From contig NZ_JARDUA010000002.1 of NCBI RefSeq assembly GCF_029360645.1, positions 248,001-312,000 of the forward strand: a DNA stretch of 64,000 nucleotides, written 5' to 3'. How positions within the stretch are numbered: position 1 is the first letter of the stretch; each line of letters starts with the position of its first letter. A program made the translations under genes and the position numbers. The notes under the pieces were generated by a model that was not told the origin of the DNA, made no database searches, and saw only the letters and a program-made list of their open reading frames with translations. This DNA comes from Pontibacter litorisediminis. Its GTDB lineage: Bacteria; Bacteroidota; Bacteroidia; Cytophagales; Hymenobacteraceae. Below, piece after piece: positions 4,559-27,605 of the stretch.

Positions 4559-7009
4559 CTAATCTCTCTCCCACTTCACCTCCGGGAACACCACCTCCAG
4601 CTGCCGTTTGATGACGCGGTAGTTGCCTTTCCAGAAACTCGCCAGGTCCGACACCGTGGTGATCGACTTCAGGTCCGGGGTAAGCAAGGCCAGCTCCACC
4701 GTCATCTCGCCTTCGTCTACCTTGGGGCTTTCCTCCCAGCCAAGTATATCCTGCAGGCGTATCTCCAGTGTTGGCTGTGCGCCGTCGGGTTTATACTCCA
4801 GTTCTATAGGTGAGCTATCCGGCAGATTTATACTTGCCGGAGCCAGTACCTCCAGCCTTGCCCGCTGCTCTTCGTTCAGGTACTTCTTTTCCAGTATTGG
4901 CAACAGTTCCAGCTCCATCAGCTCGTCGGGGTGCTCGATGTCGTACAGGTAGGGCTTTAGCCAATCGCAGTTGGTCATGAGCAGGGTACTGGTGCTCACG
5001 TCGGGCCAGAACTCGGAGGGGCGCCATTTGCGGAGGCTCATCACACGGTTTTGCCATTGGGTAAGCTCGTGGTTGAAGTCCAGCAGGTGCTCGCCTTCCA
5101 CTTTGATGGCTTCGGACATGGCGGGTACGCGGTGCTTCTCGTCGGGTGGTGGTAGCGGCTTGCTTTGCAAAACTATACTTCCGATGCAGGTGTCCAGCGA
5201 GGCGGTGAGTTCGCCGTCGTTCACGTCCCACGTATACGTTTCCTGCTGCTTTACGAGCGGTGCCAGGTCGCGGGGGTTGAGCGGTGAGGCCAGGAAAATG
5301 CGGCCGGGGTTATCGCCGGTGCCGGCGTGCAGGTGCGCGATAGCCAGCCAGGGCTCGTGAGCCAAATCATCTCTATGACCGGCAGCCGCATATTGGCCAC
5401 TGGCCAACTGGAACTGCGCGTTGTTGCCGGGGCGGGCGTAGGCGATGCGCTCGGGGTAGCAATGCGCCAGCAGCACACCGGTTTCGTACTCATCGAAAGT
5501 GCCGTTATCAGGCTCCACCTCGAACAGCTGGCGGTACGAACGGGCGATCTTCTCGATTCTGGTAAAGCGCTTGCCCTGCCCCTGCTCTTTTCTATACCTG
5601 CGCAGGGCTTCCACTCTCAAGTTAATGTCGATGCCGGCGTTGCGGTCCAGCGGGTCGCGCTCTTCCAGGACGGCGGCAATATCACTTGCCAGCGGCACCT
5701 GTTCTGTTTCTTCGGCTTTGAGCAGCATGTGCGCGATACGCGGGTGGCAAGGCAGCGTGTGCATGCGCTTGCCGTGCTCCGTGATGCGGCCATGCTCCAG
5801 CGCCTGCAGCTGGTGCAGCATGTCGGTGGCCGATTGCAGGGCGGCACGTGGCGGCGGGTTCAGCCAGGTCAGGCCCCGGATATCCGTAATGCCCCATTGC
5901 GCCATGTCCAGCACCAGGTTTGCCAGGTCTGCTTCCATGATCTCGGGGGTGCGGTGCGGGGCCATGCGCTCCTGCGTGGTTTTGCTCCACATGCGGTAAG
6001 CGGTGCCGGGGCCCAAGCGTCCGGCGCGACCGGCGCGCTGGTCGGCGGCGTCTTTGGAGATGCGCACTGTTTCGAGGCGCGACAAACCTGACTTCGGATC
6101 GAAGCGAGAGGTTTTGCCAAAGCCTGTATCCACCACCACCGAAATGCCTTCTATGGTTAAGCTGGTCTCGGCTATACTTGTAGCGAGTACCACTTTGCGC
6201 CTGCCCTGGCGGTCGGGCATGATGGCGGCGTACTGCTTGCCGAAGGGCAGCATGCCGAACAGCGGGTGTATCTGCACGCCGCGCATTTGCTTGCGCAGTA
6301 TGATCTCTACTTTCCGGATGTCGTTTTCGCCGGGCAGGAACACGAGGATATCGCCTTCCTGCTCCTTTGCTGCCTGCTGCACCACTTTGGCCGTCATTTC
6401 GGGCAGCATGCGGTCGTCGGCGTCGCCGGTGTAAATGGTGTTGATGGGGTATTGCCGCCCCATACTTTGGGCCACCGGGGCCTGCAGCAGTTTGGTGAGC
6501 TGGGGCATATCCAGGGTGGCCGACATCACCATAATGCGCAGGTCCGGGCGAAGCGCCTGTTGCGCCTCCCGGCTCAGAGCCATGGCCACGTCGGCATGGA
6601 TGCTGCGCTCATGAAACTCATCGAAGATCACGATGCCGATGCCCGTCAGCGAGCGGTCGCTGTGGATCATGCGGGTGAGGATGCCTTCTGTTACGACCTC
6701 GATGCGGGTAGCAGCGGAGGTGCGGTTCTCAAAACGGATGCGGTAGCCGACAGTCTGACCTACCTCCTCGCCCAGCAGCTGCGCCAGGCGCTCGGCAATG
6801 GTTTTGGCCGCCAGGCGCCGGGGCTCCAGCATTATAATTTTCTGATCTTTCAGCCATACTTCATCGAGTATAGCCAGCGGCAGCAAGGTGCTTTTACCGG
6901 CTCCGGGAGGTGCGTTTACAATCAGCGTATTCTGCGCCGCCAGGTGCTCCCTAACAGCAGGTATAATTCCCCGAACGGGTAAGTCTATGGTAAATGGGTT
7001 GAAGGGCAA
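4559..7009 (-). CDS. hrpB: ATP-dependent helicase HrpB
   Basis: An 816-aa DEAH/RHA-family helicase. Walker A is at about residues 33-41 (APPGAGKST), motif II is the HrpB-specific DEFH at 130-133 within FDEFHERSIHAD, and motif III SAT is at 163-165. The C-terminal recA lobe carries TSIAETSLTIEGI and the DQRAGRAGR motif. The unique HrpB C-terminal domain (PF08482-like) ends the protein at the usual length. The DEFH-HERS signature separates HrpB from HrpA. The cellular role of HrpB is poorly defined. Its ATG at 7007-7009 lies only 37 bp from the 3' end of the AT-rich ABC-3C operon, so its native promoter may have been displaced. Confidence 0.95.
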   Translation of the reverse strand: MPFNPFTIDLPVRGIIPAVREHLAAQNTLIVNAPPGAGKSTLLPLAILDEVWLKDQKIIMLEPRRLAAKTIAERLAQLLGEEVGQTVGYRIRFENRTSAATRIEVVTEGILTRMIHSDRSLTGIGIVIFDEFHERSIHADVAMALSREAQQALRPDLRIMVMSATLDMPQLTKLLQAPVAQSMGRQYPINTIYTGDADDRMLPEMTAKVVQQAAKEQEGDILVFLPGENDIRKVEIILRKQMRGVQIHPLFGMLPFGKQYAAIMPDRQGRRKVVLATSIAETSLTIEGISVVVDTGFGKTSRFDPKSGLSRLETVRISKDAADQRAGRAGRLGPGTAYRMWSKTTQERMAPHRTPEIMEADLANLVLDMAQWGITDIRGLTWLNPPPRAALQSATDMLHQLQALEHGRITEHGKRMHTLPCHPRIAHMLLKAEETEQVPLASDIAAVLEERDPLDRNAGIDINLRVEALRRYRKEQGQGKRFTRIEKIARSYRQLFEVEPDNGTFDEYETGVLLAHCYPERIAYARPGNNAQFQLASGQYAAAGHRDDLAHEPWLAIAHLHAGTGDNPGRIFLASPLNPRDLAPLVKQQETYTWDVNDGELTASLDTCIGSIVLQSKPLPPPDEKHRVPAMSEAIKVEGEHLLDFNHELTQWQNRVMSLRKWRPSEFWPDVSTSTLLMTNCDWLKPYLYDIEHPDELMELELLPILEKKYLNEEQRARLEVLAPASINLPDSSPIELEYKPDGAQPTLEIRLQDILGWEESPKVDEGEMTVELALLTPDLKSITTVSDLASFWKGNYRVIKRQLEVVFPEVKWERD

Positions 7010-11850: not shown

Positions 11851-11954
11851 TAGGTATGATTAGATTACTAGTTTTTTGCGTTCAATTGATCGAGCGAATA
11901 TAATATTTTGATTTTTGAATATACAGTTTTTACTTTTATAAATCTTCTCCCTTT

Positions 11955-12017
11955 GACGCTAACTTACAGCTCGTGCCTTTTCTTTTCCACGCAGCTATAC
12001 CTTCAGCACGAGTAACA
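11955..12017 (+). repeat. REP-like repeat copy a
   Basis: A block beginning GACGCTAACTTACAGCTCG and ending CTATACCTTCAGCACGAG. Aligned over about 58 bp with 13681-13740, it shares GCTCGTGCC-TTTTC and CGCAG-TATAC segments; with 16340-16397 it shares the ending TATACCTTCAGCAC. The left palindrome arm is decayed. It lies between the ABC-3C operon and the broken RAYT gene. Confidence 0.68.
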
Positions 12018-12122
12018 GAACGTGCTACAAACTCGCACTAGCATAGAATAACCCGGCATTGAATATCACTAGCGTAATAATACCAAAACCTGTACGCATC
12101 AGTTCTAAGTATAAGCAGGAAC

Positions 12123-12712
12123 ATGAGCAGGAAGTATAAATTTCATAACCAGGAAGGGCTATACTTTGTCAGTTTTGCGGTGGTGTACTGGATAGACGTG
12201 TTTACACGGGAGGAGTACTTTGCCCTGCTTACCGATAGCCTGGATTAAGCCGGAAGAACAAAGGTATGGAGCTCTATACCTGGTGCATCATGCCTAGCCA
12301 CGTGCACCTTCTCTTCCGGGCCAACGGCAACAACCCGGGCGTGCTGCTGAAGGAGCTGAAAACGTATACTTCCAAGCAAATAACATCCCCCTACCCCCTT
12401 CTTCATCGAGGGCCTCTACCCCCAAGGGGAACTAAGTATTGCCGAGCACAACCAGGAGAGCCGGAAAGAGTGGAAGCTCTGGCTGATGGAGCGGGCCGGC
12501 CCGAAGAACAGCAACGTAAAGCACCGGCTTTCTGGCAGCAGCACAACAAGCCTATCGAACTATGGAGCGCTGCTGTGAAAGACCAGAAGATTGACTACAT
12601 CCACAACAACCCTGTGGAAGCAGGCTTTGTGTCGGAGCCGCACCATTGGAAGTATAGCAGCGCGATAGACTTTAGTGGCGGCAAGGGTATGCTGGAGATT
12701 GATCTGGCGTAA
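12123..12712 (+). pseudogene. Decayed REP-associated tyrosine transposase (RAYT, IS200/Y1 family)
   Basis: A Y1_Tnp-family single-strand transposase read in several frames. Frame one (12123-12247) gives MSRKYKFHNQEGLYFVSFAVV and stops; a one-base loss restores MELYTWCIMPSHVHLLFRANG from about 12248, with the HUH motif HVH. At about 12385-12435 roughly 50 bp of C-rich DNA (CCCCCTACCCCC...CCCCCAAGGGG) interrupts the gene, after which NQESRKEWKLWLMERAG appears in another frame. A further one-base shift near 12530 returns to FWQQHNKPIELW and QKIDYIHNNPVEAGF, which holds the catalytic Tyr. At least three lesions make this inactive. RAYTs mobilise REP sequences, and REP-like repeats flank it here. 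Confidence 0.85.
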
Positions 12713-12716
12713 TGGA

Positions 12717-12741
12717 GTCACGGGCTGCAGGCTCGCGCCAG
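12717..12741 (+). repeat. REP-like palindrome core (partial copy b)
   Basis: Contains GGGCTGCAGGCTCGCGCCAG immediately after the RAYT pseudogene. It is the same CTGCA-centred GGCGCG...CGCGCC core as the copy at 16340, without the 3' half. Confidence 0.5.
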
Positions 12742-12829
12742 CGTAGGGCCAGCGGGGACTGATGACCTACGGCCAGCAACATTCGATTGCTACCATAAGC
12801 TATTAACTAGGAAACTAGTACCGCAAGTG

Positions 12830-13591
12830 TTAGTCCTTGCCAAGTGTAAACTCATACAACACCCTGACCGAAGCATCCCAGTCGGGATGGTTTAAACTGC
12901 GACGTACACCTGCAATAAATTCCCAGCCACTCAAATGGTTGATGTCAATACCAGTACCCACATACCAGTCTGCTTTTTCCTGGTAGGTGCCTGCTACTTC
13001 CAGCAGCGGGTGCCAGCACCCGGCTCCATATACGGCTGCCGCATTGTAGAACCAGTTGGCTTCGCCTGCCTGTAGTTCCGTGCCACCACTCAGGTGCAGT
13101 TGTGTTTGGCCAAACTGCCGGGCATAGATCAATGCAGGTGAATAAGACAAGGCATCTTCTTCGGCTCCTGCTATTTCTGTATCAGGTTTGTTAAGCGGAA
13201 ACTCTACATCCAGGGCAAACGTGGCCGCCTGTTGGGGAGAATTAAAAATTCGGATCATGATGCCCGATTCCAGGCGACGCAAGGTGTAATCTCTGTCAGA
13301 GCCTCGCAAAAGGTTATTTTCTAACTCCGTCGAAAGCTGTATCCAATCCCTTAGGCCATATTCCAGGTCCAGGCTCAGCGAATTACCCACCTGTATGTCA
13401 GCCTCCGTCCTGTAATAACTTAAGGTTGCCTGCACTTCACGGCGCTCCTGCAGATACACTGCCTCTGAAAACAAAAACTCCTGGATAAGCTGATGGAAGC
13501 CCTGCTCCTCTTCTTCCTGTTCCTGCGCCAATACGGTAGAAGTACTACCAACAAATAGCAACAGGAGAAAGAACAGGTTGTAGCTCTTCAT
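12830..13591 (-). CDS. Outer-membrane beta-barrel protein, unknown function
   Basis: A 253-aa protein with a clear Sec signal peptide (about residues 1-22, cleaved after TVLAQ) and a Glu-rich mature N-terminus. Amphipathic beta-strand-like segments follow (LSLDLEYGLRDWIQLSTELE, ATFALDVEFPL, QTQLHLSGGTEL), ending in a terminal strand SVRVLYEFTLGKD. This resembles small outer-membrane barrels annotated as putative transporters or DUF2490-like proteins in Bacteroidota. No enzymatic motif is seen. It is monocistronic and flanked by REP-like repeats. A channel or structural role is inference only. Confidence 0.65.
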   Translation of the reverse strand: MKSYNLFFLLLLFVGSTSTVLAQEQEEEEQGFHQLIQEFLFSEAVYLQERREVQATLSYYRTEADIQVGNSLSLDLEYGLRDWIQLSTELENNLLRGSDRDYTLRRLESGIMIRIFNSPQQAATFALDVEFPLNKPDTEIAGAEEDALSYSPALIYARQFGQTQLHLSGGTELQAGEANWFYNAAAVYGAGCWHPLLEVAGTYQEKADWYVGTGIDINHLSGWEFIAGVRRSLNHPDWDASVRVLYEFTLGKD

Positions 13592-13680
13592 AGTACAGCA
13601 GCAACAGTTTATACTTGTACCAAAACTTTGCCCCTGAAGTTGCTTTCCCTCCCAATGCCAGACTGCCGTTTTTGCCAGCT

Positions 13681-13740
13681 GGCGCGAGCTTATAGTTCGT
13701 GCCTTTTCCTCTCCGCGCAGTTATACTTTCTGGCGCAGCC
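13681..13740 (+). repeat. REP-like repeat copy c
   Basis: Starts with the inverted repeat GGCGCGAGC-TTATA-GTTCGTGCC, then TTTTCCTCTCCGCGCAG and TTATACTTTC. It aligns with copy a over about 58 bp, with roughly three quarters of positions identical by eye. Confidence 0.7.
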
Positions 13741-13841
13741 TATACTTCCTTTCCTAGGGTGCAGTCCCGTTATGCGTTAACTTCAGCACCAGGCCTTCGT
13801 ACCTATTATATTCCAGTTTAAACCAAATTAAACACCTGCAT

Positions 13842-14246
13842 ATGGAGGAGAATAAAACGTCGGTTGGCGCTGCTGAACGCAGCCTTGTGGAAAGGCTGGC
13901 CGAAAGATTGGGCACAGCAGCCAATAGCGCTACTATTTATGGTGAGCCGGTGGAACGGGATGGCGTTACGGTTATTCCTGTTGCAAAAGCTGCGTATGGG
14001 TTTGGGGGCGGTGCAGGTAGTGGCACAGAGAAAAAAGGAGAAGGTTATGGCGGCGGCGGTGGCATGCATTTAACGCCGGTAGGCTATATCGAAATCAAAG
14101 ACGGAACTACCCGGTTTCGCACTATACGCGACCCTCAAACAGTGGTAAAAATAGTAGCCATCGGTAGCCTGGCCTTGTTGCTGACCACCAAGAGCATTGT
14201 CAGTATCTTTAAAAACAAGAAGCTGGTTAAGCTACTGAAGAAGTAG
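13842..14246 (+). CDS. GerW/YtfJ-family protein
   Basis: A 134-aa protein of the GerW (YtfJ, PF09579) family. It contains TIYGEPVERDGVTVIPVAKAAYGFGGGAG at about 32-60, then a Gly/Lys-rich linker ending GGGGGMHLTPVGYIEIKDG at about 71-90. A C-terminal hydrophobic helix (KIVAIGSLALLLTTKSIVSIF) follows. In Firmicutes the family member is a spore protein. Here there is no sign of sporulation, so the role is unknown. The C-terminal segment suggests membrane attachment. Family call is confident; function is not. Confidence 0.82.
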   Translation: MEENKTSVGAAERSLVERLAERLGTAANSATIYGEPVERDGVTVIPVAKAAYGFGGGAGSGTEKKGEGYGGGGGMHLTPVGYIEIKDGTTRFRTIRDPQTVVKIVAIGSLALLLTTKSIVSIFKNKKLVKLLKK

Positions 14247-14275
14247 GGGTTCGGTGGCTGTCGCTATGTCGCCAT

Positions 14276-14310
14276 AGACACTCGCGGGGCATTCAGACGC
14301 TGCGCAGTCT
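14276..14310 (+). repeat. 35-bp dispersed palindromic repeat, copy 3
   Basis: Begins AGACACTCGCGGGGC and ends GACGCTGCGCAGTCT, with the same end blocks as 4483-4517. It lies 30 bp after the GerW-like gene and could serve as its 3' hairpin (TTTT follows). Confidence 0.7.
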
Positions 14311-14405
14311 TTTGTGCCCCCGCTGCTGATCTCACCCGTTAGCACCTTTTGGAATATAAACTACTGTAATCCGTTGCTATTCCCCCTAAAGCCGTACACT
14401 ATAGT

Positions 14406-14582
14406 ATGACCGAGAATAAATTTCCCATTGGATCCGATGTGTTCGCAAAAGTGAATCCGGATCTGGTATTAACCATTCGCCAATACCTGAAACGCATCTA
14501 TTACTGTACTGTAAAAGATCATCCTTCGCAGAAGGACCTGGTATACTTCGAGCGGGAGTTAGTAGCTGTACCGATACGTTAA
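14406..14582 (+). CDS. Short conserved-looking 58-aa protein, function unknown
   Basis: A short gene with ATG at 14406 and TAA at 14580-14582. The product starts MTENKFPIGSDVFAKVNPD and continues through an RQYLKRIYYCTV segment to FERELVAVPIR. The composition is that of a folded small protein (mixed charged and hydrophobic, one Cys). A strong terminator follows just 6 bp after the stop, which supports a real transcription unit. I do not recognise a family with certainty. The pattern of Val, Pro and Lys near the start hints at a beta-barrel-like modulator fold. No neighbour suggests a pathway. Confidence 0.62.
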   Translation: MTENKFPIGSDVFAKVNPDLVLTIRQYLKRIYYCTVKDHPSQKDLVYFERELVAVPIR

Positions 14583-14588
14583 ACCATG

Positions 14589-14617
14589 AAGCCCCTGTTC
14601 AAGCAGGGGCTTTTTTA
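14589..14617 (+). terminator. Terminator after the 58-aa gene
   Basis: A stem AAGCCCCTG / CAGGGGCTT with a 6-nt loop, followed by TTTTT. It may also serve the converging gene at 14642-15013. Confidence 0.85.
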
Positions 14618-14641
14618 TGCCTTCTAAATCATCGCTTTAGG

Positions 14642-15013
14642 TCAATCTTCAAAGCCTTCCCGCAGTTCTTTTGACTGGGCATAGCACACGGGGCTGCTGT
14701 TTTCCTTCCGCTCTGCCTTTTCCTTTACCAGCTCCTCGTAGTTGGCTGGGGTAGAGAGTATCCTGCACTTCGGGTAAAGCACTACTCCCCGCCGCACGAT
14801 CTTGCTGTTCGCTTCTATCTCATGCGCATTCACCCCTTCCGCCCCATACACGTGGATTGTGAAGAAATGATAGTTCGTTTTCTTGGCGTACCCTTCTGCC
14901 GTTATCCTGCCCGTTATCGTCCGCTCCCCGATAAAGTCTGATGTCTCCCCTGCCACATAGGGCGTGTACACCGACTCTGTCCACTCTACTTTACATCCTA
15001 CTGTCAGATTCAT
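14642..15013 (-). CDS. Conserved-looking hypothetical protein, 123 aa
   Basis: A cytoplasmic-looking protein (no signal peptide or membrane helix). The N-terminal two thirds is rich in beta-type sequence (LTVGCKVEW, RTITGRITAEGYAKK, YHFFTIHVYGAEG), and the last third is a charged helix (YEELVKEKAERKENSS). The first half reads like a small OB- or SH3-type barrel, but no family can be named. It converges with the 58-aa gene and shares the terminator between them. The ATG at 15011-15013 is the first in frame. Confidence 0.6.
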   Translation of the reverse strand: MNLTVGCKVEWTESVYTPYVAGETSDFIGERTITGRITAEGYAKKTNYHFFTIHVYGAEGVNAHEIEANSKIVRRGVVLYPKCRILSTPANYEELVKEKAERKENSSPVCYAQSKELREGFED

Positions 15014-15235
15014 AATTCTGTGATATGCTTTAGTAGCTTTACGTTAACCGTGCCGCAAAATATAAATTCTCTGGCTCAATCTTAGGTATAACCGGCACCG
15101 CCCGCTGGCGCAGCCTAGCTCCTGCAACTGTAATACCCGCCTATCGTTTAGAGACAACAGGTACGGCGGCACGAGCAAAACCCACTGAGTTGTAGGGCCC
15201 AGTAGTACCTGCATGCAACACTAAAGAACGGGTAT

Positions 15236-16138
15236 ATGCAAGAAGAAATCCGCAACTCTTCAACTGATCTGTTTACGGTCCTTAACTACTACTGGGAGAA
15301 GTTCCTGTTCCTGCTCCCCAACATTCTGCTTACCATCGTTATTTTTGTTGTGGCGGTGTGGCTGGCTGGGAAGATCAGGAACTGGCTGGAGGGCAGGCTA
15401 ACGACTAAAGCGCACGATGAGATCACCGGCAGGTACATCGCACTGGTTACGCGGTGGGTCATTATCTTTATCGGCCTGTTGCTGGGCTTGCAGGCGCTGG
15501 GCCTGAGTGGCGTGGCCGGTGGCTTGCTGGCAAGTGCAGGCTTATCTGCTTTTGTGATCGGGTTTGCCTTCAAGGACATTGCCGAGAACTTTCTGGCTGG
15601 CCTTATCCTTGCCTTTAACCGCCCTTTCGAGATAAACGACACCATAGAGGTAGAAGACACGACCGGGAAAGTGCAAAACCTGCACCTGCGCACCACCCAC
15701 ATCCTCACCTTCGACAGCCGCGACGTGTACATCCCGAATGCCAAGATCCTGAGTTCCAAAGTAACCAACCTGACCCATAACGGCCGCATCCGGATGGATT
15801 TTATAGTAGGCCTTGATTACAACAACGATGCTCAGGAGGCCATCGACCTGATTGAAAAGACAGCTTTGGGCGTTGAAGGCGTTTTACGGGAAGACCCGCC
15901 CTACGCCACCGTTGACGAACTCGGCGTGAGCACGTTGAACATCAAGGTATTTTTCTGGGCCGAAACCGATGATTACAAAAAAGGGGTTGTGTTGCTGAAA
16001 GGCCGCATCATGCAGGCTGTCACAAAGGCCCTGTTGGATAACGGCTTCGGGCTTCCGGCTAACATACAGGAGCTCAAGCTTTACGATTACCAGCAAGACC
16101 TGCCCATCCGTATGGTGGAAAAGCCGGTGCAGGAGTAA
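15236..16138 (+). CDS. mscS: Mechanosensitive ion channel, MscS family
   Basis: A 300-aa inner-membrane channel that should open on hypo-osmotic membrane tension. Three membrane segments are visible at about 25-50, 66-90 and 92-120. The third is the pore helix VAGGLLASAGLSAFVIGFAFKD with the Gly/Ala packing of MscS, followed by IAENFLAGLILAFNRPFEINDTIEV, the start of the beta domain. The cytoplasmic alpha/beta vestibule continues to about residue 280. Length is close to E. coli MscS (286 aa). It stands alone, with a REP-like hairpin about 200 bp downstream. Confidence 0.93.
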   Translation: MQEEIRNSSTDLFTVLNYYWEKFLFLLPNILLTIVIFVVAVWLAGKIRNWLEGRLTTKAHDEITGRYIALVTRWVIIFIGLLLGLQALGLSGVAGGLLASAGLSAFVIGFAFKDIAENFLAGLILAFNRPFEINDTIEVEDTTGKVQNLHLRTTHILTFDSRDVYIPNAKILSSKVTNLTHNGRIRMDFIVGLDYNNDAQEAIDLIEKTALGVEGVLREDPPYATVDELGVSTLNIKVFFWAETDDYKKGVVLLKGRIMQAVTKALLDNGFGLPANIQELKLYDYQQDLPIRMVEKPVQE

Positions 16139-16339
16139 GTTCAGGGTACTGTAGGCCGCCAGTGGCAAAGAAGAAAAAGGAAATGAAACAAGTGAGGAGA
16201 ATCGGCATGTATTTTAACTAGCAGCTGCTCCTACTCCCGGCTAAAACTCATTTCTCTGGCCTACAGGAAAAGTAACTGAACATACGCCGGCACAGCCTTA
16301 ACATCACACGCCGGATTTACCTATAACCTGGCATCCACT

Positions 16340-16397
16340 GGCGCGGGCCTGCAGCTCGCGCCAGTTTTTTCCGACTGGCTATACCTTCAGCACAAGC
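16340..16397 (+). repeat. REP-like repeat copy e (also terminator-like)
   Basis: Left arm GGCGCGGGC and right arm GCTCGCGCC around CTGCA, followed by AGTTTTTTCC, then CTATACCTTCAGCAC as in copy a. The stem plus T6 tract could also terminate mscS transcription. The flanking 16139-16441 contains no gene. Confidence 0.68.
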
Positions 16398-16441
16398 AAC
16401 GTTGCGCGCAAAAAGCGGGCACCAGCCAAAGGAAAGTCTAG

Positions 16442-16960
16442 TCACAGCCGGCCGCTCTCTTTGGCTTGCTCATAGTCAGCCTGATCGAAAACCTTAACTC
16501 CGCTAAAGCCGAGCTGTTTATACTTTAGCAACCGAAACATGTGTTTGTCGTCCGGATAATCGGCATAATAGTCCAGTTGCGCTACCCCTTCTAACGTGCT
16601 TCCTTCGGAGACAGGACGCATTTTGCGCCGGCGAAACGTCTTCTGGATTTTTCGGAAAGTGTTGCCTGCGTAAGCGTTATATAAAATGCGCGAAGGGCTG
16701 GCATCGTTGTAGTAAAGGACACACCAGGCCGTAGCTCCCTCACCCGTTTTACTTGGGCTATAAGCCCATACCGCCTTGCCCATCAGCTCATCCGTTGGTT
16801 TGCTGTCAGACATAAACTTCCAGCCTTTTCTGGAAAGCTTTTTGTCTGCCTCGGCAACGTCCATTTCTCTTAGCTTCTGCAGGTTTCGGAGCGTAAGGTC
16901 TTGGGCTAGTGCCGGAGCAGAGAAAGCTACCAGGAAAAAGCAAAGGAAGCGTAGTTTCAT
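16442..16960 (-). CDS. Secreted hypothetical protein
   Basis: A 172-aa protein with a Sec signal peptide (MKLRFLCFFLVAFSAPALAQ). I chose the ATG at 16958-16960, which starts the signal; an in-frame upstream extension to 17065 has no protein-like character. The mature part has a charged helix (LRNLQKLREMDVAEADKKLSRKGW) followed by a mixed region ending FDQADYEQAKESGRL. The pattern 'AWCVLYYND' suggests a beta-sheet core. No known family is recognised. It is probably periplasmic. Confidence 0.65.
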   Translation of the reverse strand: MKLRFLCFFLVAFSAPALAQDLTLRNLQKLREMDVAEADKKLSRKGWKFMSDSKPTDELMGKAVWAYSPSKTGEGATAWCVLYYNDASPSRILYNAYAGNTFRKIQKTFRRRKMRPVSEGSTLEGVAQLDYYADYPDDKHMFRLLKYKQLGFSGVKVFDQADYEQAKESGRL

Positions 16961-17159
16961 AAGAGACGTAGGATACCAGTGATTAAATATAGTATAATAA
17001 TTGGAAAGAGCTGTTCCGCAAGCGCTCTCCCCTACTGCTCCGCCTCTGCCCGTTACGCCGGCCATCGCGCATAACCTTTAAGCTTCTATCTAGTTAAAGT
17101 ATAAACCTGTGCACAAAGCACCGCAACCTGTATATCCACAACCCAAAAACAAACTTATT

Positions 17160-17996
17160 ATGCCATTTATTGAAACGGAAGATGTCCAGAGAAACGAAAA
17201 TGTGTACCTCAACTACCAGGACCACGGCGATGGACAGCCGGTGATCCTGTTACACGGATGGCCGCTCAGCCACAAGATGTGGGAACACCAGGTACAGGCC
17301 TTGGTAAATGCCGGCTTCCGCTGTATTGCCTACGACCGCCGCGGCTTCGGCGACTCCGACCGCCCCTGGCGCAACTACGACTACACCTCTCTTGCCCAGG
17401 ACCTGCGCGCCCTGATAGAGCAGCTGGACCTGCGGGACTGTATCCTGGTGGGCTTCTCGATGGGCGGCGGTGAGGTAGTGCGCTACCTGTCTATGTTCGG
17501 CAACGACCGGGTAGACAAGGCTGTGCTCATCAGCTCGATTATCCCTATCGTGAAAAAGACGGACGATAACCCGGACGGAGTTCCCGAAGACAAACTGAGC
17601 GAGATCATGGAGGCCCTGAAGACGAAGCGGGTCACGTTTCTGGCTGAGTTCGCAAAGCAGTTCTACAACTACAGCGACAACAAAGACACGGTGAGCGAAG
17701 AGAACCTGAAGTATGACTGGGCCATTACCTCTGCGGCATCGCCCCATGCGACCATTGAAACAGCCAAGGCCTGGGCAAACACTGATTTTCGCCGGGAGTT
17801 ACAAAACGTGAGGGTGCCCACGCTTATCATACACGGCGATGCCGACCAGATCGTGCCCATCGAAACCAGCAGCGAGCAGTCTTCCAAAGAGATCCGGGAT
17901 AACAAATACATTGTTGTGAAGGATGGCCCGCACGGGCTGTTCCTGACGCACAAGGAAGAGGTGAACAGTGCCCTGCTCGACTTCCTGAGGCGGTAG
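17160..17996 (+). CDS. Alpha/beta hydrolase, non-heme haloperoxidase-like
   Basis: A 278-aa alpha/beta-hydrolase of the cofactor-free haloperoxidase/esterase group. The oxyanion-hole motif HGWPLSHKMW is at 32-41, the nucleophile elbow GFSMGGGE places Ser100, and LIIHGDADQIVP supplies the acid. The catalytic His is in GPHGLFLTHKEE near the C-terminus. The ATG at 17160 was preferred over the GTG at 17109 because the domain begins directly at MPFIETED. Many relatives are perhydrolases or lactonases; the natural substrate is unknown. It converges with the sigma/anti-sigma pair, with a shared terminator between. Confidence 0.88.
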   Translation: MPFIETEDVQRNENVYLNYQDHGDGQPVILLHGWPLSHKMWEHQVQALVNAGFRCIAYDRRGFGDSDRPWRNYDYTSLAQDLRALIEQLDLRDCILVGFSMGGGEVVRYLSMFGNDRVDKAVLISSIIPIVKKTDDNPDGVPEDKLSEIMEALKTKRVTFLAEFAKQFYNYSDNKDTVSEENLKYDWAITSAASPHATIETAKAWANTDFRRELQNVRVPTLIIHGDADQIVPIETSSEQSSKEIRDNKYIVVKDGPHGLFLTHKEEVNSALLDFLRR

Positions 17997-18024
17997 AAGC
18001 GTTTCGGACACTATACTTAAGGCT

Positions 18025-18062
18025 GGCAGCGCCCTTGCATGAAGCAAGGGCGCTGCCCTTTA
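18025..18062. terminator. Bidirectional terminator between converging genes
   Basis: A perfect 14-bp stem (18025-18038 with 18044-18057) and 5-nt loop between the hydrolase (+) and the anti-sigma gene (-). Confidence 0.85.
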
Positions 18063-18071
18063 TAGGGTAGG

Positions 18072-18686
18072 TTATACTATGCTCAGGCGTTGCAGAATGG
18101 CTTTACATGGTGTTGCCGAGGTAACCACTACATGGTGGGGCGTGTGCAGCGGCACCTCCAGAAAGTCTCCTGCGGCCAGGTGGTGGACGGTGTCTCCCGT
18201 CGTGAACCGGCAGGCCCCTTCCAGAATCAGGAAACGCTCATACTCATCATGGTGGATCTCCTCTTCGGACCTATCCTTTACCCACAGAATGGCTGTTGTG
18301 GACTTTGGGGTATAGCCAATAATCTTGGCATACATGCTATCTGCACCGTCGGGCATTACGGCATCTTCTCTGTTCAGCCATTTCGCATAATCGCTAATGC
18401 GGGAGTCGGGGGTTAAAATGGGCGGCGACTCTGGCAGCTCCCCCTGCTTCATGCGCTCCAGGTAATCTATGGTAGCTAAAAGCAGAGTTTTAACCGTACG
18501 TCGCGGCTTTACGGCATGTGCCTGTGCATAATGCTCCATTGCCAGCCGGGTCTGCTCTATTTCCTGCTGCACCTCAGGGTGGGCGGCGGCCATTTCTTCA
18601 ACGGCAAGCACCTCCTCCGGGCTGGCAACACCCATCACATACAGTTCCAAAACCCCGGATTCTATAAACGCTGTAATAGGGTTCAT
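18072..18686 (-). CDS. Cupin-type (ChrR-like) anti-sigma factor
   Basis: A 204-aa protein. The N-terminus (about 1-60) resembles the helical anti-sigma domain of ChrR/RskA-type factors (ESGVLELYVMGVASPEEVLAVEEM). The C-terminal half (about 115-200) is a cupin with HHDEYERFLILEGACRF and GDFLEVPLHTPHHV, which carry likely metal-binding histidines. ChrR-family cupins sense singlet oxygen or organic peroxide; the stimulus here is unknown. The start overlaps the sigma gene stop by 4 bp (ATGA-type coupling), typical of a sigma/anti-sigma pair. It should hold the sigma factor inactive. Confidence 0.82.
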   Translation of the reverse strand: MNPITAFIESGVLELYVMGVASPEEVLAVEEMAAAHPEVQQEIEQTRLAMEHYAQAHAVKPRRTVKTLLLATIDYLERMKQGELPESPPILTPDSRISDYAKWLNREDAVMPDGADSMYAKIIGYTPKSTTAILWVKDRSEEEIHHDEYERFLILEGACRFTTGDTVHHLAAGDFLEVPLHTPHHVVVTSATPCKAILQRLSIV

Positions 18687-19213
18687 ACTGGCTTCTCTGC
18701 TTTAAGATAGGTAAATGCTCTTTTTAAAACTACTCTCACTTCCGCTTCGGCTATACCCAGTTCCGCTGCTGTCTCGGCGCAGGTGCGGCCCTTCAGGTAG
18801 AGCTGCTCCAGCACTGCTTTTTCCAGCGGAGCAAGGCGACAAAGGTCCTCCTTTTTGATAGGGCTGTGCTGCAAAGATACACTTTTATTTTCCTGCAAAG
18901 CGTTCGGCTTTGCCTGGGTGTTTTGCGTGTTGTCTTTTAAGGTCTCGAGCGCCACCTCCCGGGCGATGGCCAGGCTCCAGGTGAGCAGCCTTTCTTTAGC
19001 GCCGTCATAGCGCCCGATGCGCGTCCAGATCGCCACAAAACTATTTTTCAGCACTTCTTCGGCTACATCGGCATCCTCTACGATCCTGCTGATAAGGCCC
19101 ATCATCACGGGAGCATAGGCATCGTAGAGTTTGGCTAACATTTCCTGATCCCCCTGCCGGATGGCAGCTATCAGACTTTTTTCCGTCTCACCCTTAAGAT
19201 TTATTCCTGGCAT
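18683..19213 (-). CDS. ECF RNA polymerase sigma factor
   Basis: A 176-aa ECF sigma. Sigma-2 spans about 12-85 (LIAAIRQGDQEMLAKLYDAYAP, DADVAEEVLKNSFVAIWTRIGRYDG) and sigma-4 about 120-172 (LAPLEKAVLEQLYLKGRTCAETAAELGIAEAEVRVVLKRAF). The length is normal. It is upstream of and coupled to a cupin anti-sigma factor, which suggests control of an oxidative-type stress regulon (inference). No autoregulatory promoter motif was recognisable upstream. Confidence 0.9.
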   Translation of the reverse strand: MPGINLKGETEKSLIAAIRQGDQEMLAKLYDAYAPVMMGLISRIVEDADVAEEVLKNSFVAIWTRIGRYDGAKERLLTWSLAIAREVALETLKDNTQNTQAKPNALQENKSVSLQHSPIKKEDLCRLAPLEKAVLEQLYLKGRTCAETAAELGIAEAEVRVVLKRAFTYLKAEKPV

Positions 19214-19514
19214 ACTGGTTCCACACTGGCAGCACCGTCTTAGGCGAAGGCGGCCGGCATTTATGTTAATGGTACAAAAAGCGCTAACGCTATCCCGGCT
19301 TGTGCCGGAGAATCAATACGCACCGCTACGTAATAATACGTAATCCTTCTCAAATTTCTGCTATTAATTCTACCCAATACCCTTCCATCAGCGGAAGCAA
19401 AGCAATCCTTTCTTTAAACTGCCTGCCATAAGGCTTTAAATCGGCAGGAAACGACACGCTAAGAGATGCTTATGCGTATTTAACACTGTTGTATCTCTTT
19501 TCAGGGCAACAGCC
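19214..19514. other. Divergent intergenic region
   Basis: About 300 bp between the ECF sigma gene (-) and the DUF748-like pseudogene (+). It presumably holds both promoters, but no confident box or gene was seen. Confidence 0.4.
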
Positions 19515-20554
19515 ATGGTCTTGAGGAAATCATATATGCTAGCAGCCTTTGCCGTTCTCCTGCTGATCGCGCTTCGGCTGGCACTGCCCTACCTGGTGAA
19601 GGACTATGTGAACAGGACCCTGGAGGGGCTGCCCGGCTACACGGGCCATGTAGCGGATATTGACCTGCACCTTTACCGCGGAGCCTATGCCATCGACGGC
19701 CTGGTGCTGGAAGAAGAGGGCGGCAATCCCGATCACCCTTTTCTAAGAATTCCCCGAACCGACCTCTCCATCGTGGGGAGGTCGTGATGGAAAGCCCCGA
19801 GGTGAACTTGGTAGAGGCGAACGCGGACACTGCCTCCAAAGAGGAACCTACCCGGGCGCATTGGTCTGAGGTGGTAAAAGACCTGATGCCGATGACCATC
19901 AACCGCTTTGTGGTGAACAACGGCCGGTTGGCCTACCTTGACTTCAGCAAGAAACAGCAGATAGACCTGCACCTGTCTGAACTACAACTGGTGGCCTTGA
20001 ACCTGGCCAATGTGGAGGAAGCCGCCAACGAATTACCCTCTACAATACACCTAACGGCAAAATCGGTGGGCGGTGGCGCCCTGAAGGGGGACATGAAGGC
20101 CAACCTGCTGAAGGAGATACCCGATTTTGACATGAACATGCAGCTTACCCACGTAAACCTGACCAGCATAAACGATTTTATCAAAGCGCACGGCAAGTTT
20201 GATGTGGAGCGTGGCCGTATGGACGTGTACAGCGAGCTGCAACTTAAAGACGGCCAGCTGGACGGATACATAAAGCCTTTTTTTGAAAACGTGAAGGTGC
20301 TTAACTGGGAAAAGGACAAGAAAGAGGGAGGTCTTTTACAGACAGCCTGGGAGGCCATTGCAGGTTTGTTTGTTGAGGCGGCAGAGAACCAGCCACGGGA
20401 CCAGATCGCCACCAAGGTTCCGATCAGGGGCAATGTGAAACAGCCTGATACCGACGTCTCCGCCACGATCTTTAACCTGCTGCGCCATGCTTTCATCAAG
20501 GCCTTTAATAAGGGCATAGAGGCAGAAGCAACTGCTGCCGAAGAAGAGGAATGA
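19515..20554 (+). pseudogene. DUF748/AsmA-like membrane protein, frameshifted
   Basis: Two overlapping frames belong to one protein. The first (19515-19787, 90 aa) has an N-terminal membrane anchor (MLAAFAVLLLIALRLALPYLV) and the family start YVNRTLEGLPGYTGHVADIDLHLYRGAYAIDGL, then runs off at DLSIV. The second, from about 19775, continues GEVVMESPEVNLVEA to the end at 20554, as in DUF748 proteins. Relatives have a few more residues (an 'EW-x-ALF'-type segment) between DLSI and GEVVMESP, so a short internal deletion plus a frame change is the best reading. A sequencing error would explain the frame change but not the missing residues. DUF748 proteins are AsmA-like envelope proteins. Confidence 0.78.
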
Positions 20555-20750
20555 GCCACAGCAGGGCTATGTTACCGGCTCTCCGGTAGGCTCAGGCGGC
20601 AGGCGGTAAATGCCCCGGAACCCAGGCGTGAGTGGCGCTTTTACCACTCTGCCTCCTTAGCTTCTTTTTCTGCCTAACCGCGTACTTCCTATCGTAAAAT
20701 CCTTATATTTATACGTGCTTCCAACACCTAACCCACCTAACCTAACGACC

Positions 20751-21833
20751 ATGAAAAACCTTTACACGACGCTGGCCCTGGGGCTGGTCCTGCTCCTGCA
20801 GGCTTGTTCCCCATCAGCAGACCAGGCTGCCTCTGAAAACGCCACTTCTCAGACTGCCTCTCCCGAGCTGGCAACTTACCTGGACTACTCCGGTACAGAG
20901 ACTGAACTCAGCGGCGGCGCCCGCAGGATCACCATCACCACCCCGAAAGGCGATTTTTACGTCTGGACGAAGCGGGTGGGCAACAATCCTACCATGAAAG
21001 TGCTGTTGCTGCACGGCGGCCCCGGCGGCACCCACGAGGCCTTCGAGTGTTTCGACAGCTATTTACCCAAAGCCGGCATAGAGTATTATTACTACGACCA
21101 GCTGGGCTCCCACTACAGCGATCAGCCCAACGACACCAGCCTCTGGAACATCGACCGTTTTGTGGAAGAAGTGGAGCAGGTGCGACAGGCCCTGAACCTG
21201 GATGAGCGTAATTTCTACCTGCTGGGCCACTCGTGGGGCGGCATCCTGGCCACCGAGTACGCACTCAAGTACCAGCAGCACCTCAAGGGCCTGATCATCT
21301 CGAACATGGTGTCGAGTATACCGAGCTACAACCAGTATGCCGACCAGGTGCTGGGGCCGCAGATGCCGGCTGAGGTGCTGGCCGAGATAAAGCAGATAGA
21401 GGCTAAAAACGATTTCGCGAACCCGCGCTACATGGAGCTGCTGCTGCCGTACTTTTATACCCAGCACGCCCTGCGCATGCCGCTGGAGCAATGGCCGGAC
21501 CCGGTGCTGCGCATGTTCGACCACATGAACCAGACGGTGTACGTGCAGATGCAGGGGCCGAGCGAGTTCGGTATCCGGGGGAATGCCTCGCTCCTTAACT
21601 GGGACCGCTCCAAGGACCTGCCCCGCATCAAGGTGCCTACGCTAACCATAGGGGGCCAGTACGATACCATGGATCCCAAGCACATGGAGTGGATGGCCAC
21701 GCAGTTTCCGAACGGCCGCTACCTGTACTGCCCCGAAGGCAGCCACATGTCCTTCTACGACGACCAGAAAACGTACTTTAACGGCCTGGTTGATTTTATA
21801 AAGGATGTAGACAGCGGAAAAGTGACGCAGTAA
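20751..21833 (+). CDS. Proline iminopeptidase-family lipoprotein hydrolase
   Basis: A 360-aa alpha/beta hydrolase. A lipoprotein signal ends at Cys19 (LLLQA-C), so it is membrane-anchored outside the cytoplasm. The prolyl-aminopeptidase hallmarks are HGGPGGTHE near 88-95 and GHSWGG with nucleophile Ser161; TIGGQYDTM supplies the acid and PEGSHMSFYD the His. The ATG at 20751 begins the signal peptide; the in-frame ATG at 20715 adds an unlikely Pro-rich tail. A TATATTTA box about 40 bp upstream is a weak promoter candidate. Probably releases N-terminal residues from short peptides in the periplasm; substrate preference is inferred from family. Confidence 0.87.
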   Translation: MKNLYTTLALGLVLLLQACSPSADQAASENATSQTASPELATYLDYSGTETELSGGARRITITTPKGDFYVWTKRVGNNPTMKVLLLHGGPGGTHEAFECFDSYLPKAGIEYYYYDQLGSHYSDQPNDTSLWNIDRFVEEVEQVRQALNLDERNFYLLGHSWGGILATEYALKYQQHLKGLIISNMVSSIPSYNQYADQVLGPQMPAEVLAEIKQIEAKNDFANPRYMELLLPYFYTQHALRMPLEQWPDPVLRMFDHMNQTVYVQMQGPSEFGIRGNASLLNWDRSKDLPRIKVPTLTIGGQYDTMDPKHMEWMATQFPNGRYLYCPEGSHMSFYDDQKTYFNGLVDFIKDVDSGKVTQ

Positions 21834-21899
21834 TACTCTTTCTCAGGAAAGCGTGACAGGCTGCTGGCATTTCGGCTTTTCAAGCTATAGGTTGAATAA

Positions 21900-21974
21900 G
21901 CGGTGCTTGCGCCCGGGCAGCTGCCAGGCCGCAAGCACCGCGGCTCCTCCGCACTGGCGGGGGAGCCGCGGTGC
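21900..21974. promoter_or_regulatory. Two mutually exclusive long hairpins (switch-like element)
   Basis: Stem 1 pairs 21900-21911 with 21930-21941 (12 bp, perfect, GCGGTGCTTGCG arms). Stem 2 pairs 21935-21947 with 21962-21974 (13 bp, perfect). The arms overlap at 21935-21941 (GCACCGC), so both cannot form at once. The element lies 67 bp after the peptidase gene and 182 bp before the cytochrome gene. It could be an attenuator, a double terminator or a mobile palindrome. No T-tract follows stem 2, which argues against a plain terminator. Confidence 0.6.
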
Positions 21975-22108
21975 AGGTTTAAGGCCTCCTCCCAAGCTCC
22001 CACCTTCTTATGCCTTCCGTTGCCTGAACTGCTCCTTTAGCCCTTGCTGCCAAGCTGTTCACTATATATCTCAGTTTCTTATACTTTCTGTCCTAAAGAG
22101 AGCTTACC

Positions 22109-22136
22109 TTGAGTAAGTTCTGCCAGGTAGTATTTG
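22109..22136 (+). promoter_or_regulatory. Possible promoter of the cytochrome c gene
   Basis: TTG at 22109-22111 and a TAGTATTTG box at 22128-22136 (one base longer than TAnnTTTG), 20 bp before the ATG, with GAGG in the ribosome-binding position. Confidence 0.35.
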
Positions 22137-22155
22137 CACATTAAAACTTGAGGTT

Positions 22156-22767
22156 ATGAAAAACAAACAGCTCTATACCGCGCTGGCCGTGTTCGTGGCC
22201 GTTGCGCTATTTACCCACTTTTCCAGTGGCCCTGCCACCGTGGCCGCACCGGCTGGCTCTACCCCTCAGTTACAGTCAGATCAGGAACTAATTAAACATG
22301 GGGAGCGGCTGGTGATGATCGCCGGTTGCCACGACTGCCACACGCCCAAGAAAATGACAGACAAAGGACCTGTCATGGACTTCTCCCGCGCCTTGTCGGG
22401 GCACCCGGCACAGATGCCGCCGCCTGATGTTAACCGCAAGGAAGTTGAGGAGAAAGGCCTTGCCGTTACCCAAACATTAACTTCCTGGGTGGGGCCCTGG
22501 GGAATTTCCTATGCCGCCAACCTCACCTCCGACCCCACCGGCATCGGCAACTGGACTGAGAAGCACTTCTTCACAGCCATCCGCGAAGGCAAGCACAAAG
22601 GCCTAGAATCCGGCCGCATGCTGTTGCCGCCCATGCCCTGGGAGATGCTCCGGCACATGACGGACGAAGAGCTGCGGGCCGTCTACACGTACCTGAAATC
22701 CACCAAGCCCATTAAAAACGTTGTGCCGCCAGCGCAGCCGCCGGTATCGGCAGCACCCGGCAAATAA
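22156..22767 (+). CDS. Periplasmic c-type cytochrome
   Basis: A 203-aa protein with an N-terminal signal/anchor (residues 5-22) and one haem-c motif C-H-D-C-H near residues 58-62 (MIAGCHDCHTPKKM). The candidate Met ligand is in LLPPMPWEMLRHM near 155-167. The closing helix DEELRAVYTYLKSTKPIKNVVP is typical of the cytochrome c fold. A Pro/Ala-rich tail ends the protein. It should carry electrons in the periplasm; the partner is not evident, since neighbours are a peptidase and a lipoprotein. Confidence 0.85.
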   Translation: MKNKQLYTALAVFVAVALFTHFSSGPATVAAPAGSTPQLQSDQELIKHGERLVMIAGCHDCHTPKKMTDKGPVMDFSRALSGHPAQMPPPDVNRKEVEEKGLAVTQTLTSWVGPWGISYAANLTSDPTGIGNWTEKHFFTAIREGKHKGLESGRMLLPPMPWEMLRHMTDEELRAVYTYLKSTKPIKNVVPPAQPPVSAAPGK

Positions 22768-22840
22768 AGGCTCCTGCCGTAGTTTTCCGCTTGCGGGGCA
22801 AAGGTGGCGTGCCACCTGAAGGCATAAGGTTTGGGTTGGT

Positions 22841-23527
22841 TTACTGCTTCACCGAAGCGATCATGAACGACTGCACAAGCAGGGTATCGCCTGTCTGCAG
22901 CAGGTTCAGACCCTCGGGGTCAAAGGCGTTAGAGGTACCCACTGTTACCGTCGCTCCGTTCGGCCTTTTAAGGGTGATGAACATGCGGTGCATGTGCAGC
23001 CCCTTATCTTTGAACTCGCCGTAAAACCGGCTTCTTGTTTTGTAGGTATAGGCATAGCCCGTTGCGGGTGCCAGCTCCTGTTTCTCGGTTCTGATAGGTT
23101 TATACTTGGATAGGCCCTCCAGTAAGTCGCTGAGGTATACCTGGCTTGCAGGCACCATTACGCTGCCCTCCTCTTTACTCGTAAACAGCAACACTTTTCC
23201 TTCCTGCTGCACATCCAAGGCATCTGTAGTCCCGTCTGAGTTCGTGACCTCTGCCTCTCCCGCAGAGAGTAGGGTCAGGAGTTGTGTGGCGCTTACGGGC
23301 TCCTCCTTGTTCTCCAGAAAGTACCTCTCGCCCCTCTTTTTGGCAAAAGCATGAATCACAGCCTGGTCTTTTACCTCCCCGACACTGGTGAACATGTAGA
23401 CAGGCGTGGTGTTGTAGATCGTCTCGCTCTTGTAGGTGGCCGGGTATGTTATACCGGGGGAAGCGTCCTCCTTATCGCAGCTTGTGAAAAGGAAACAGGA
23501 AAGCAGGATAAAGCATGTTTTCTTCAT
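22841..23527 (-). CDS. Hypothetical lipoprotein, 228 aa
   Basis: Starts MKKTCFILLSCFLFTSC, a lipoprotein signal with lipobox FTS-C at Cys17. The ATG at 23525-23527 was chosen because the longer frame (to 23776) has no protein-like sequence before the signal. The mature part contains VFMFTSVGEVKDQAVIHAFAKKRGERY, an STAT-like VSATQLLTLLSAGEAEVT region, and ends RPNGATVTVGTSNAFDPEGLN...VQSFMIASVKQ. No known domain. Probably surface or periplasmic. It lies 150 bp downstream of an ABC exporter on the same strand, so it could be in its operon. Confidence 0.65.
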   Translation of the reverse strand: MKKTCFILLSCFLFTSCDKEDASPGITYPATYKSETIYNTTPVYMFTSVGEVKDQAVIHAFAKKRGERYFLENKEEPVSATQLLTLLSAGEAEVTNSDGTTDALDVQQEGKVLLFTSKEEGSVMVPASQVYLSDLLEGLSKYKPIRTEKQELAPATGYAYTYKTRSRFYGEFKDKGLHMHRMFITLKRPNGATVTVGTSNAFDPEGLNLLQTGDTLLVQSFMIASVKQ

Positions 23528-23678
23528 ATAAGTTTGTTTATATAGCTTTTCAAGTATAGCGCTAATCGTTATATTTTCCACACATCCTGAAAAGTATATT
23601 TCCTTGCCTCCGCAACTTCGTACTGGTGCCTTTCTACGCGCGGGAAGAGACCTGGCGAAACGGCCTATGGTGCCGGGG

Positions 23679-25427: not shown

Positions 25428-25856
25428 GGGTATCGAGGTAATAGCAAGTATAAAGGTAGTTATTTTTGCCCTCCCTGTAAGCTATTTGGCAACCCGGACT
25501 TTACGATTGAATAAGCCCTCCCTGCTGCTTCCCCGGCGAGCTTCTTTAAAACCGTTCCCTGCTCCTTATCTTCTCAGTTTCTGCCAACGCCCACACCCTT
25601 CCAGGGCATTCCCTACCTCAAGCCCTTGGCCTGCAATAGCTGTGGCTCGGTTACCGATGGCCGCTCCTTTTTCTCACCACCTATAGCCATGACTTACAGC
25701 CACTTCTGCACCTCCTGCATACTTTTATAAAATTTCCGATGAACCTTGTCTTAGGCAACACGTACTATGGTTGCAAAAAGGTTTAAAACATCAGCTAATT
25801 CACTATCGAAACACCTCTCCTCTAATTGCCATTTTTCACCCTTATTGTATTATTCT
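25428..25856. other. Divergent intergenic region, no gene seen
   Basis: About 430 bp between the ABC exporter (-) and a lipoprotein gene (+). No supportable gene, RNA or box. One AAGTATA near 25449. Confidence 0.4.
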
Positions 25857-26333: not shown

Positions 26334-26358
26334 GGTCTTAACCGACAGCAAATACTTT

Positions 26359-26389
26359 AAAGGCACGGGCATTAAACCCGTGCCTTTTT
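26359..26389 (+). terminator. Terminator after the 158-aa lipoprotein
   Basis: A stem AAAGGCACGGG / CCCGTGCCTTT with a short loop and TT tail. Confidence 0.82.
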
Positions 26390-26401
26390 GATGCCCGTGC
26401 C

Positions 26402-26776: not shown

Positions 26777-26877
26777 CGTAACTCTTACTGTTTATACTTT
26801 AAAAACGGCGTAACAGGCTAAAGACATCCTGCAGCTTTTTGTTACCGTTAGTAAGAGAAAGCACAACTCCTAAAGCC

Positions 26878-27582: not shown

Positions 27583-27605
27583 TGCTAAGTTCTATTTACT
27601 TTCCG

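Follow-up and report, generated by a model that had tools for sequence, protein, structure and literature searches.

We analysed a 64,000-nucleotide stretch of the Pontibacter litorisediminis genome (C2:248001-312000 of a 5.0-Mb genome; hereafter the window), which contains a broken gene for a repetitive extragenic palindrome (REP)-associated tyrosine transposase (RAYT) and, around it, several copies of a hairpin-forming repeat, the REP. Some copies are joined as inverted pairs around a spacer, i.e., as REP doublets forming hairpins (REPINs). The locus is composed of the following elements.

11949..12042, + strand: full REPIN unit upstream of the RAYT (match to the REPIN model R2, of which it is itself a row)
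12123..12712, + strand: broken RAYT gene (PF01797; NF047646; frames and alignment)
12382..12435, approximate ends, no strand: C-rich hairpin element inserted in the RAYT, from a second dispersed repeat family
12717..12739, - strand: inverted REP directly downstream of the RAYT (core pattern, covariance model R1)
13676..13732, + strand: partial REPIN, consisting of a REP (+) at 13681-13703 and the first part of the spacer (core pattern, R2)
16334..16426, + strand: second full but decayed REPIN (R2, of which it is itself a row; alignment)

A pattern search of the window found REP cores at 11955-11977, 13681-13703, and 16340-16362 on the + strand and at 12717-12739 on the - strand, exactly where the original prediction, made from the letters of the window, had seen three REP copies and a palindrome core. 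The TTTTC tract and TATAC box that it described after the palindrome are real as well, and they occur near REPs because they are part of the REPIN spacer. The first REPIN consists of the REP (+) at 11955-11977, a 39-nt spacer with TTTTC and TATAC, and an inverted REP at 12017-12039 followed by AGC, and it aligns with RAYT-flanking REPINs of 11 other genomes. The second consists of the REP (+) at 16340-16362, a spacer, and a decayed inverted REP at 16401-16423. These two inverted partners, which complete the units and give them the paired REPs and conserved spacer of a REPIN, had been overlooked. In many Pontibacter genomes, a REPIN of ~94 nt lies upstream of the RAYT; in it, TTTTCTTTTCC and GCTATACC are found in a spacer of ~39 nt that separates the REP (+) from its inverted partner.

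The RAYT had been described as the only transposase here and as inactivated, which holds on both counts: it is the sole PF01797 match in the window, which contains no intact RAYT gene since this one, when compared to a full-frame orthologue, shows two 1-nt deletions and one C-rich insert of ~46 nt. Its PF01797 match places the predicted product in the HUH/Y1 RAYT family. The broken gene reaches 58 of 80 bits with NF047646 (L031-L033 score above the cut-off), and the best match of the RAYT profile in the PDB is TnpAREP (4er8, E 9.7e-7). The closest named relatives are from Pontibacter species, and the full frame is kept in at least 13 of 24 RAYT loci (L067-L090). The site of the C-rich insert is common to five of the 22 displayed RAYT rows, from five genomes including the window; stops or frameshifts interrupt four of the five genes, and the fifth (L068) is open through the insert but without the usual N-terminus. 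The corresponding hairpin family (CCCCCTRCCCCCTTCAAAGGGGGA) occupies 19 places in the genome against 0 for the control, the diverged window copy not being among the 19. A full-length RAYT was to be sought elsewhere in the genome, and there are three with open frames (176-181 aa, one of them, L033, with an odd C-terminus), but their flanking hairpins are unlike the window REP. Two more distant Y1 proteins are also encoded.

REPs are far from restricted to the window. A degenerate core (up to three mismatches) occurs 61 times genome-wide, forward in 36 cases and reverse in 25, whereas the reversed control pattern occurs once, which rules out chance palindromes as the source of the copies. With R1, there are at least 108 matches at E ≤ 1, 93 of them below 0.01, a lower bound because 150 of 2,077 candidates were scored; 30 model rows match by construction. 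The further copies that a genome-wide profile search was expected to reveal thus exist, and single REPs are spread over the whole genome. The densest cluster among the 108 is nonetheless the window RAYT locus, where five of them share 4.5 kb (Poisson P = 7e-8 for a single stretch; when corrected for ~1,100 stretches, about 1e-4). Whether the copies pair as REPINs had been put forward as a check. They do so in two full units and one partial unit in the window, but pairing is ruled out as a rule for all REP copies since 16 of 18 close neighbours in the genome (within 400 nt) are in direct order.

In an alignment of 30 copies, the hairpin is preceded by GCT, with T invariant and G and C each in at least 90%, and the fourth pair is G·U in 27 (locus L027, which by eye seemed to be inside a coding sequence, was omitted from alignment A1). 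Covariation in the 30-copy alignment is 0.300 versus 0.189 when shuffled, with none of 500 shuffles as high, and DNA folding gives -10.0 kcal/mol for the hairpin strand versus -7.7 for its complement. Rfam returned no match at the gathering score in seven loci and the whole window. Many single REPs are embedded in mosaic intergenic repeats of 250-500 bp (L016:1340-1843; parts of most of L001-L030), which are ~70-83% alike over longer stretches and carry several hairpin modules, mostly in one orientation; in the loci tested, Rfam gave nothing for these either.

A hairpin plan at part of the Bacteroidota RAYT genes

Orthologous RAYTs of other species are flanked by the same hairpins, which substantiates the link between REPs and RAYT proposed originally. 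We describe the plan across 80 named RAYT loci, obtained from one scan of genome contigs, 78 of which have Bacteroidota titles. In brief, 250 nt on each side of all 80 genes were scanned for hairpins with any single non-Watson-Crick pair, with DNA beyond 900 nt as control. Near the RAYTs, there were 57 G·T hairpins in 39,255 bases, distributed over 35 of the 80 loci, versus 18 in 222,438 bases of far flanks. The three bases before the foot were G in 47, C in 45, and T in 53 of 56 near hairpins, versus 9, 11, and 13 of 17 far ones, a lean toward the same tag that would be expected if the far hairpins are copies. The stem continues for six pairs beyond the wobble in 55 of 57 near hairpins, against 10 of 18 far ones, and a three-base loop is found in 48 of the 57. 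Upstream of the RAYT, 21 hairpins are on the + strand and two on the - strand, and downstream 28 are on the - strand and six on the + strand, so that 49 of 57 fit an inverted arrangement around the gene. The reverse T·G hairpins number 10, in five loci.

When one hairpin per locus was taken (29 loci), the first loop base was T and the pair above the wobble C-G in 29 of 29, neither of which had been selected for. The covariation score of 0.669 versus 0.177 in this set is partly built in, since the hairpins had been chosen for pairing in the first place. Across the RAYT tree (83 rows; L130, L136, L170, and L171 dropped), the G·T label changes 13 times versus 27.4 when shuffled, with none of 500 shuffles as low, and the clade containing the window's orthologues (SH-aLRT 98) has a G·T hairpin in 22 of 26 rows.

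These findings show that the REP follows a plan: GCT, then an imperfect hairpin whose fourth pair, counted from the foot, is a G·T wobble with six Watson-Crick pairs above it, and a loop that usually has three bases and begins with T. The plan recurs at part of the Bacteroidota RAYT genes and follows the RAYT tree. The shared tag, wobble position, and loop base provide defined substrates for a first biochemical test of this RAYT class. A separate observation concerns L031 and L033, two RAYTs of the window's own genome, whose flanks carry perfect-stem hairpins of the CTTTCGGATT-tgt-AATCCGAAAG type; some of these come after GCT, and the tag may therefore be wider than the wobble.

REPINs near the RAYT in Pontibacter

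We examined 50 genomes of the genus, 23 with a window-type RAYT (at least 65% identity over some listed segment) and 27 without. At most 41-42 REP matches were scored per genome, so that counts saturate near 41; the median is 36 in genomes with the RAYT versus 7 in those without (Mann-Whitney p = 2e-5), which ties the repeats to RAYT-bearing genomes as anticipated. Among the REP matches listed, 25 of 47 lie within 2.5 kb of a RAYT, a rough figure.

For REPINs, we used the sequence-only model R2, whose 17 rows are two window copies and 15 copies from RAYT flanks of the 11 other genomes. It gave 291 matches at E ≤ 1e-8 in the 50 genomes, with positions from the best 150. The 23 RAYT genomes account for 92 of the matches listed. 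By distance from the RAYT, 38 of these fall inside 1 kb, a further 23 inside 5 kb, and another 11 inside 25 kb, with the remaining 20 far away. Hence 72 of 92 lie within 25 kb, whereas chance alone would place ~1% there (50 kb out of 5 Mb), and 70 of these 72 are on the RAYT strand; of the far ones listed, nine are on the same strand and 11 on the opposite. In the window's own genome, three R2 matches are better than 1e-8, all in the window and on the RAYT strand (two are model rows), and the next-best, on C7, fits both strands.

We then compared 27 fetched islands, 26 from genomes of relatives plus the window. Strong REPINs are on the RAYT strand in 108 cases and on the opposite strand in two; four islands, holding 23 of the 108, were oriented by their REPINs. 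Only seven of 142 island REPINs lie inside an open reading frame (ORF), with ORFs defined by length without a gene finder. Decayed RAYT copies next to REPINs in several islands indicate that whole REPtrons, i.e., RAYTs with their REPs, are also copied locally. One-stranded clusters occur in genomes without a window-type RAYT as well (seven REPINs in 14 kb in G121, six in ~12 kb in G101, four in 4.3 kb in G105); no RAYT was found in the fetched stretches of these three. Taken together, these findings show that, in many Pontibacter genomes, the best-preserved REPINs gather less than ~25 kb from the RAYT and are nearly always on its strand.

We propose, with a probability of about 0.68, that the window contains the decayed home locus, or REPtron, where a Bacteroidota-type RAYT stood with its cognate REPs, and that REPINs moved in a strand-specific manner. 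The Y1/HUH RAYT would bind the hairpin strand with the G·T pair, its complement having an A·C mismatch at that position, and would cut single-stranded DNA using GCT as a guide. The guide rule of one published enzyme, that of Marinomonas, when applied to NGCT predicts a cut at AG; of 17 aligned REPINs, 16 have this dinucleotide after the inverted REP. REPIN copies would be rejoined into single-stranded DNA close by on the same replication fork, and this would explain why they keep their orientation. Whole REPtron copies would also arise and then decay. In this genome, the RAYT would have died, leaving a small REPIN relic, with single REPs spread genome-wide. The plan makes a clear prediction, i.e., action on the G·T strand only, with a cut at AG, and REPINs that cluster around their transposase in a single orientation, if borne out, would be evidence that movement is fork-local and strand-specific, something that dispersed repeats hardly reveal. 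The original suggestion of a relic of local REP expansion is therefore supported for REPINs, whose three best matches in this genome are in the window and which form islands in relatives, while single REPs are not local and REPINs themselves are dispersed in some relatives.

Several observations weigh against our proposal. A G·T hairpin is missing within 250 nt of 45 of the 80 RAYTs, close REP neighbours in the window's genome are mostly in direct rather than inverted order, and some of the 27 genomes without a window-type RAYT have many REPs (up to 41). Without the 17 model rows, which match by construction, at least 55 of 75 listed REPINs are near the RAYT, 53 of the 55 on its strand, and if the other 110 of the 202 REPINs in RAYT genomes are counted as far, the near share would drop to 72 of 202. 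Many of these 110 belong to G125, with 33 REPIN matches in all, and G008, with 52; in the latter, six of the 11 listed are on other contigs, which amounts to dispersal in that genome. Finally, G125, G067, and G083 have REPINs in tandem at intervals of ~104-109 nt, which suggests that duplication by recombination contributes as well.

Gene order around the islands

Two further features of the window concern the region in which the islands lie.

4559..6832, - strand: helicase gene of the hrpB type, which borders the region on its left in 19 of 27 fetched islands (absent from the fetched stretches of the other eight)
12830..39318, no strand: right part of the shuffling region, with accessory genes (domain matches, island comparison)

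The right part encodes Spore_YtfJ, DUF7699, MscS, hydrolases, a sigma factor with a cupin partner, cytochrome c, an ABC transporter, and others. Its intergenic DNA in the islands (~17-39 kb in the window) is enriched in a palindrome, AACTATAGTT, and the octamer AACTATAG occurs 59 times in 76 kb, perhaps as the operator of a regulon. Just before the RAYT, 7047-11850 is an AT-rich stretch with AAA-type ATPase, trypsin-like, and metallo-beta-lactamase-fold genes, possibly a candidate defence module; relatives of the latter two genes are at the edge of the G101 island.

As control for gene order, we used one region only, around a gene with HHH_6 and an OB fold that we take to be dnaE; in the window's own genome, this region contains another RAYT (L033) with other hairpins. 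A peptidase S13 gene was dropped as control owing to its closeness to the RAYT, ~40 kb in that genome and similar in several others. In the 20 genomes shared by both sets, islands differ from the control in discordant gene order (0.150 versus 0.003), broken adjacencies (242 of 576 versus 47 of 3,207), and family pairs found in both orders (44 of 129 versus 3 of 433), and strand flips are 8 of 677 versus 56 of 3,397. Of the 54 gene families present in at least three islands, 52 are strictly one-stranded, with six of 362 members on a minority strand. Gene order that changes without inversion deserves an explanation whatever its cause. REPINs are abundant in this setting, with 183 lines (nhmmer E < 1e-5, strands unmerged) in 717 kb of island versus two in 736 kb of control. 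In base-by-base comparisons of four genome pairs, some homology blocks start or stop at REPINs, including one G101-G105 block with all four ends within REPINs, and many others do so elsewhere.

One rival account, to which we give an even chance, is that the region is a hot spot for the turnover of accessory, perhaps stress, genes for other reasons and that REPINs are tolerated passengers. Right of the last REPIN, 389 of 854 intervals are broken in the absence of any REPIN (comparisons that are not independent), order discordance is 0.175 versus 0.221 for other pairs, and no other strand-asymmetric repeat was seen at 8 or 10 bases. Order thus breaks equally beyond the REPINs, which rules them out as the only cause and makes the shuffling a property of a larger region. 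This account sits less well with the REPIN zone, where 306 of 637 intervals with a REPIN are broken versus 57 of 213 without (the comparisons share genomes and are not independent), and with single-gene gaps, which are broken more often when they hold a REPIN (odds ratio 3.0 over non-independent comparisons; 2.1 per gap, p = 0.058). In the shuffling region, REPINs may be passengers, facilitators, or lost from its older part.

It is also conceivable, although we would bet against it, that the RAYT seeded the first copies only and that RecA recombination or replication slippage between direct REPIN repeats produced the co-oriented islands, by tandem duplication then loss, without present RAYT activity. 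The tandem REPINs described above speak for this, as do some islands with several decayed RAYTs and one homology block that spans from REPIN to REPIN. In addition, duplicates were seen inside an island in 10 genome-family cases (two are the RAYT itself and one is probably a split gene). Slippage leaves unexplained the full REPINs and single REPs on other contigs, and many copies are kilobases apart with other genes between them.

A bolder reading, which we consider improbable, is that the RAYT-REPIN island is a non-inverting, integron-like platform for gene shuffling in which a single-strand HUH enzyme does the work. Gene modules with co-oriented REPINs at their borders would be excised and rejoined in fixed orientation beside hrpB, and the older parts of the array would have lost their REPINs. 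REPIN score falls only weakly with distance downstream of the RAYT (rho -0.25, p = 0.05), so an integron-like age gradient is not demonstrated. Last, many copies have T-rich sequence after a GC-rich hairpin, as would suit RNA elements, intrinsic terminators for instance, that had spread in ordinary ways. We reject this as the main account, as very improbable, on the conserved 5' GCT tag, the G·T position, and the inverted flanks of the RAYTs, along with the empty Rfam searches of seven loci and the window.

Relation to known systems

In integrons, gene modules lie between hairpin-forming sites and are reordered without inversion near one recombinase gene. The Pontibacter islands resemble them in having gene modules between hairpin-forming sites and a non-inverting reordering. 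In contrast to integrons, the enzyme here is of the HUH type, gene families are found on either strand, and shuffling reaches beyond the sites. No tyrosine recombinase (PF00589, E ≤ 0.001) was found inside the fetched islands of the eight genomes searched (8/8), and an integron with such an enzyme is therefore rejected.

Canonical REPs and REPINs, which go with group 2/3 RAYTs, are reportedly the subject of Bertels and Rainey 2011. The window REPs share with them the many copies in the genome and the copies flanking a RAYT (extragenic position was counted in islands only). As far as the account of Corneloup et al. 2021 (PMC8266576) that we draw on extends, the two are also alike in the tag 5' of the hairpin, the irregular stem (in group 2), the RAYT flanked by its own REPs, and the inverted pairs with a spacer. 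They differ in that the tag here is GCT in nearly all aligned copies, with neither GTAG nor GTGG directly 5' of the hairpin, that the stem has a wobble rather than a bulge, and that the best-preserved REPINs are concentrated and co-oriented near the RAYT. In that part of the same paper, the E. coli and two other TnpAREP enzymes cut beside the REP at CT, one of them also at CA, and the inverted REP is left uncut by the E. coli and Stenotrophomonas enzymes. For the Marinomonas enzyme, the tag chooses the dinucleotide, with GTGG giving CC and GTAC giving GA and GT, whereas an attempt of this kind failed for the other two.

Another family of short tagged palindromes, also present in Bacteroidota, is that of the CGTC-tagged repeats (Di Nocera et al. 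2013, PMC3733652). These have CGTC at one end, where we find (C)GCT, and are stated, in the portion of that paper used here, to be free of association with transposase genes.

The closest known system is subclass 2.6 of TnpA-Y1, or RAYT group 5, for which Quentin et al. 2018 (PMC6006769) found flanking "atypical secondary structures" by eye. The portion of their paper on which we rely describes Bacteroidota proteins of ~180 aa with HxH, WQ, and YIH[QN]NP motifs, flanked by hairpins that have genomic copies and no GT[AG]G. Setting aside five frame-broken rows of our 80 leaves 75 usable RAYTs, among which HxH is found in 75, WQ in 64, and the Y-motif in 69, with a median length of 180 aa; the window-type RAYT has SHVH in place of the published NH[LIV]H. 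By motifs, length, and taxonomy, the RAYTs described here fit subclass 2.6. In the open-licence literature, supplementary tables being outside its scope, we found neither the GCT/G·T plan nor REPIN islands described before, nor a gene order next to a RAYT that changes without inversion. Compared with that portion of the subclass 2.6 description, what is added here is a common plan of the flanking hairpins, i.e., GCT, a G·T at the fourth pair, 6 bp above it, and a loop starting with T, together with its fit to the RAYT tree.

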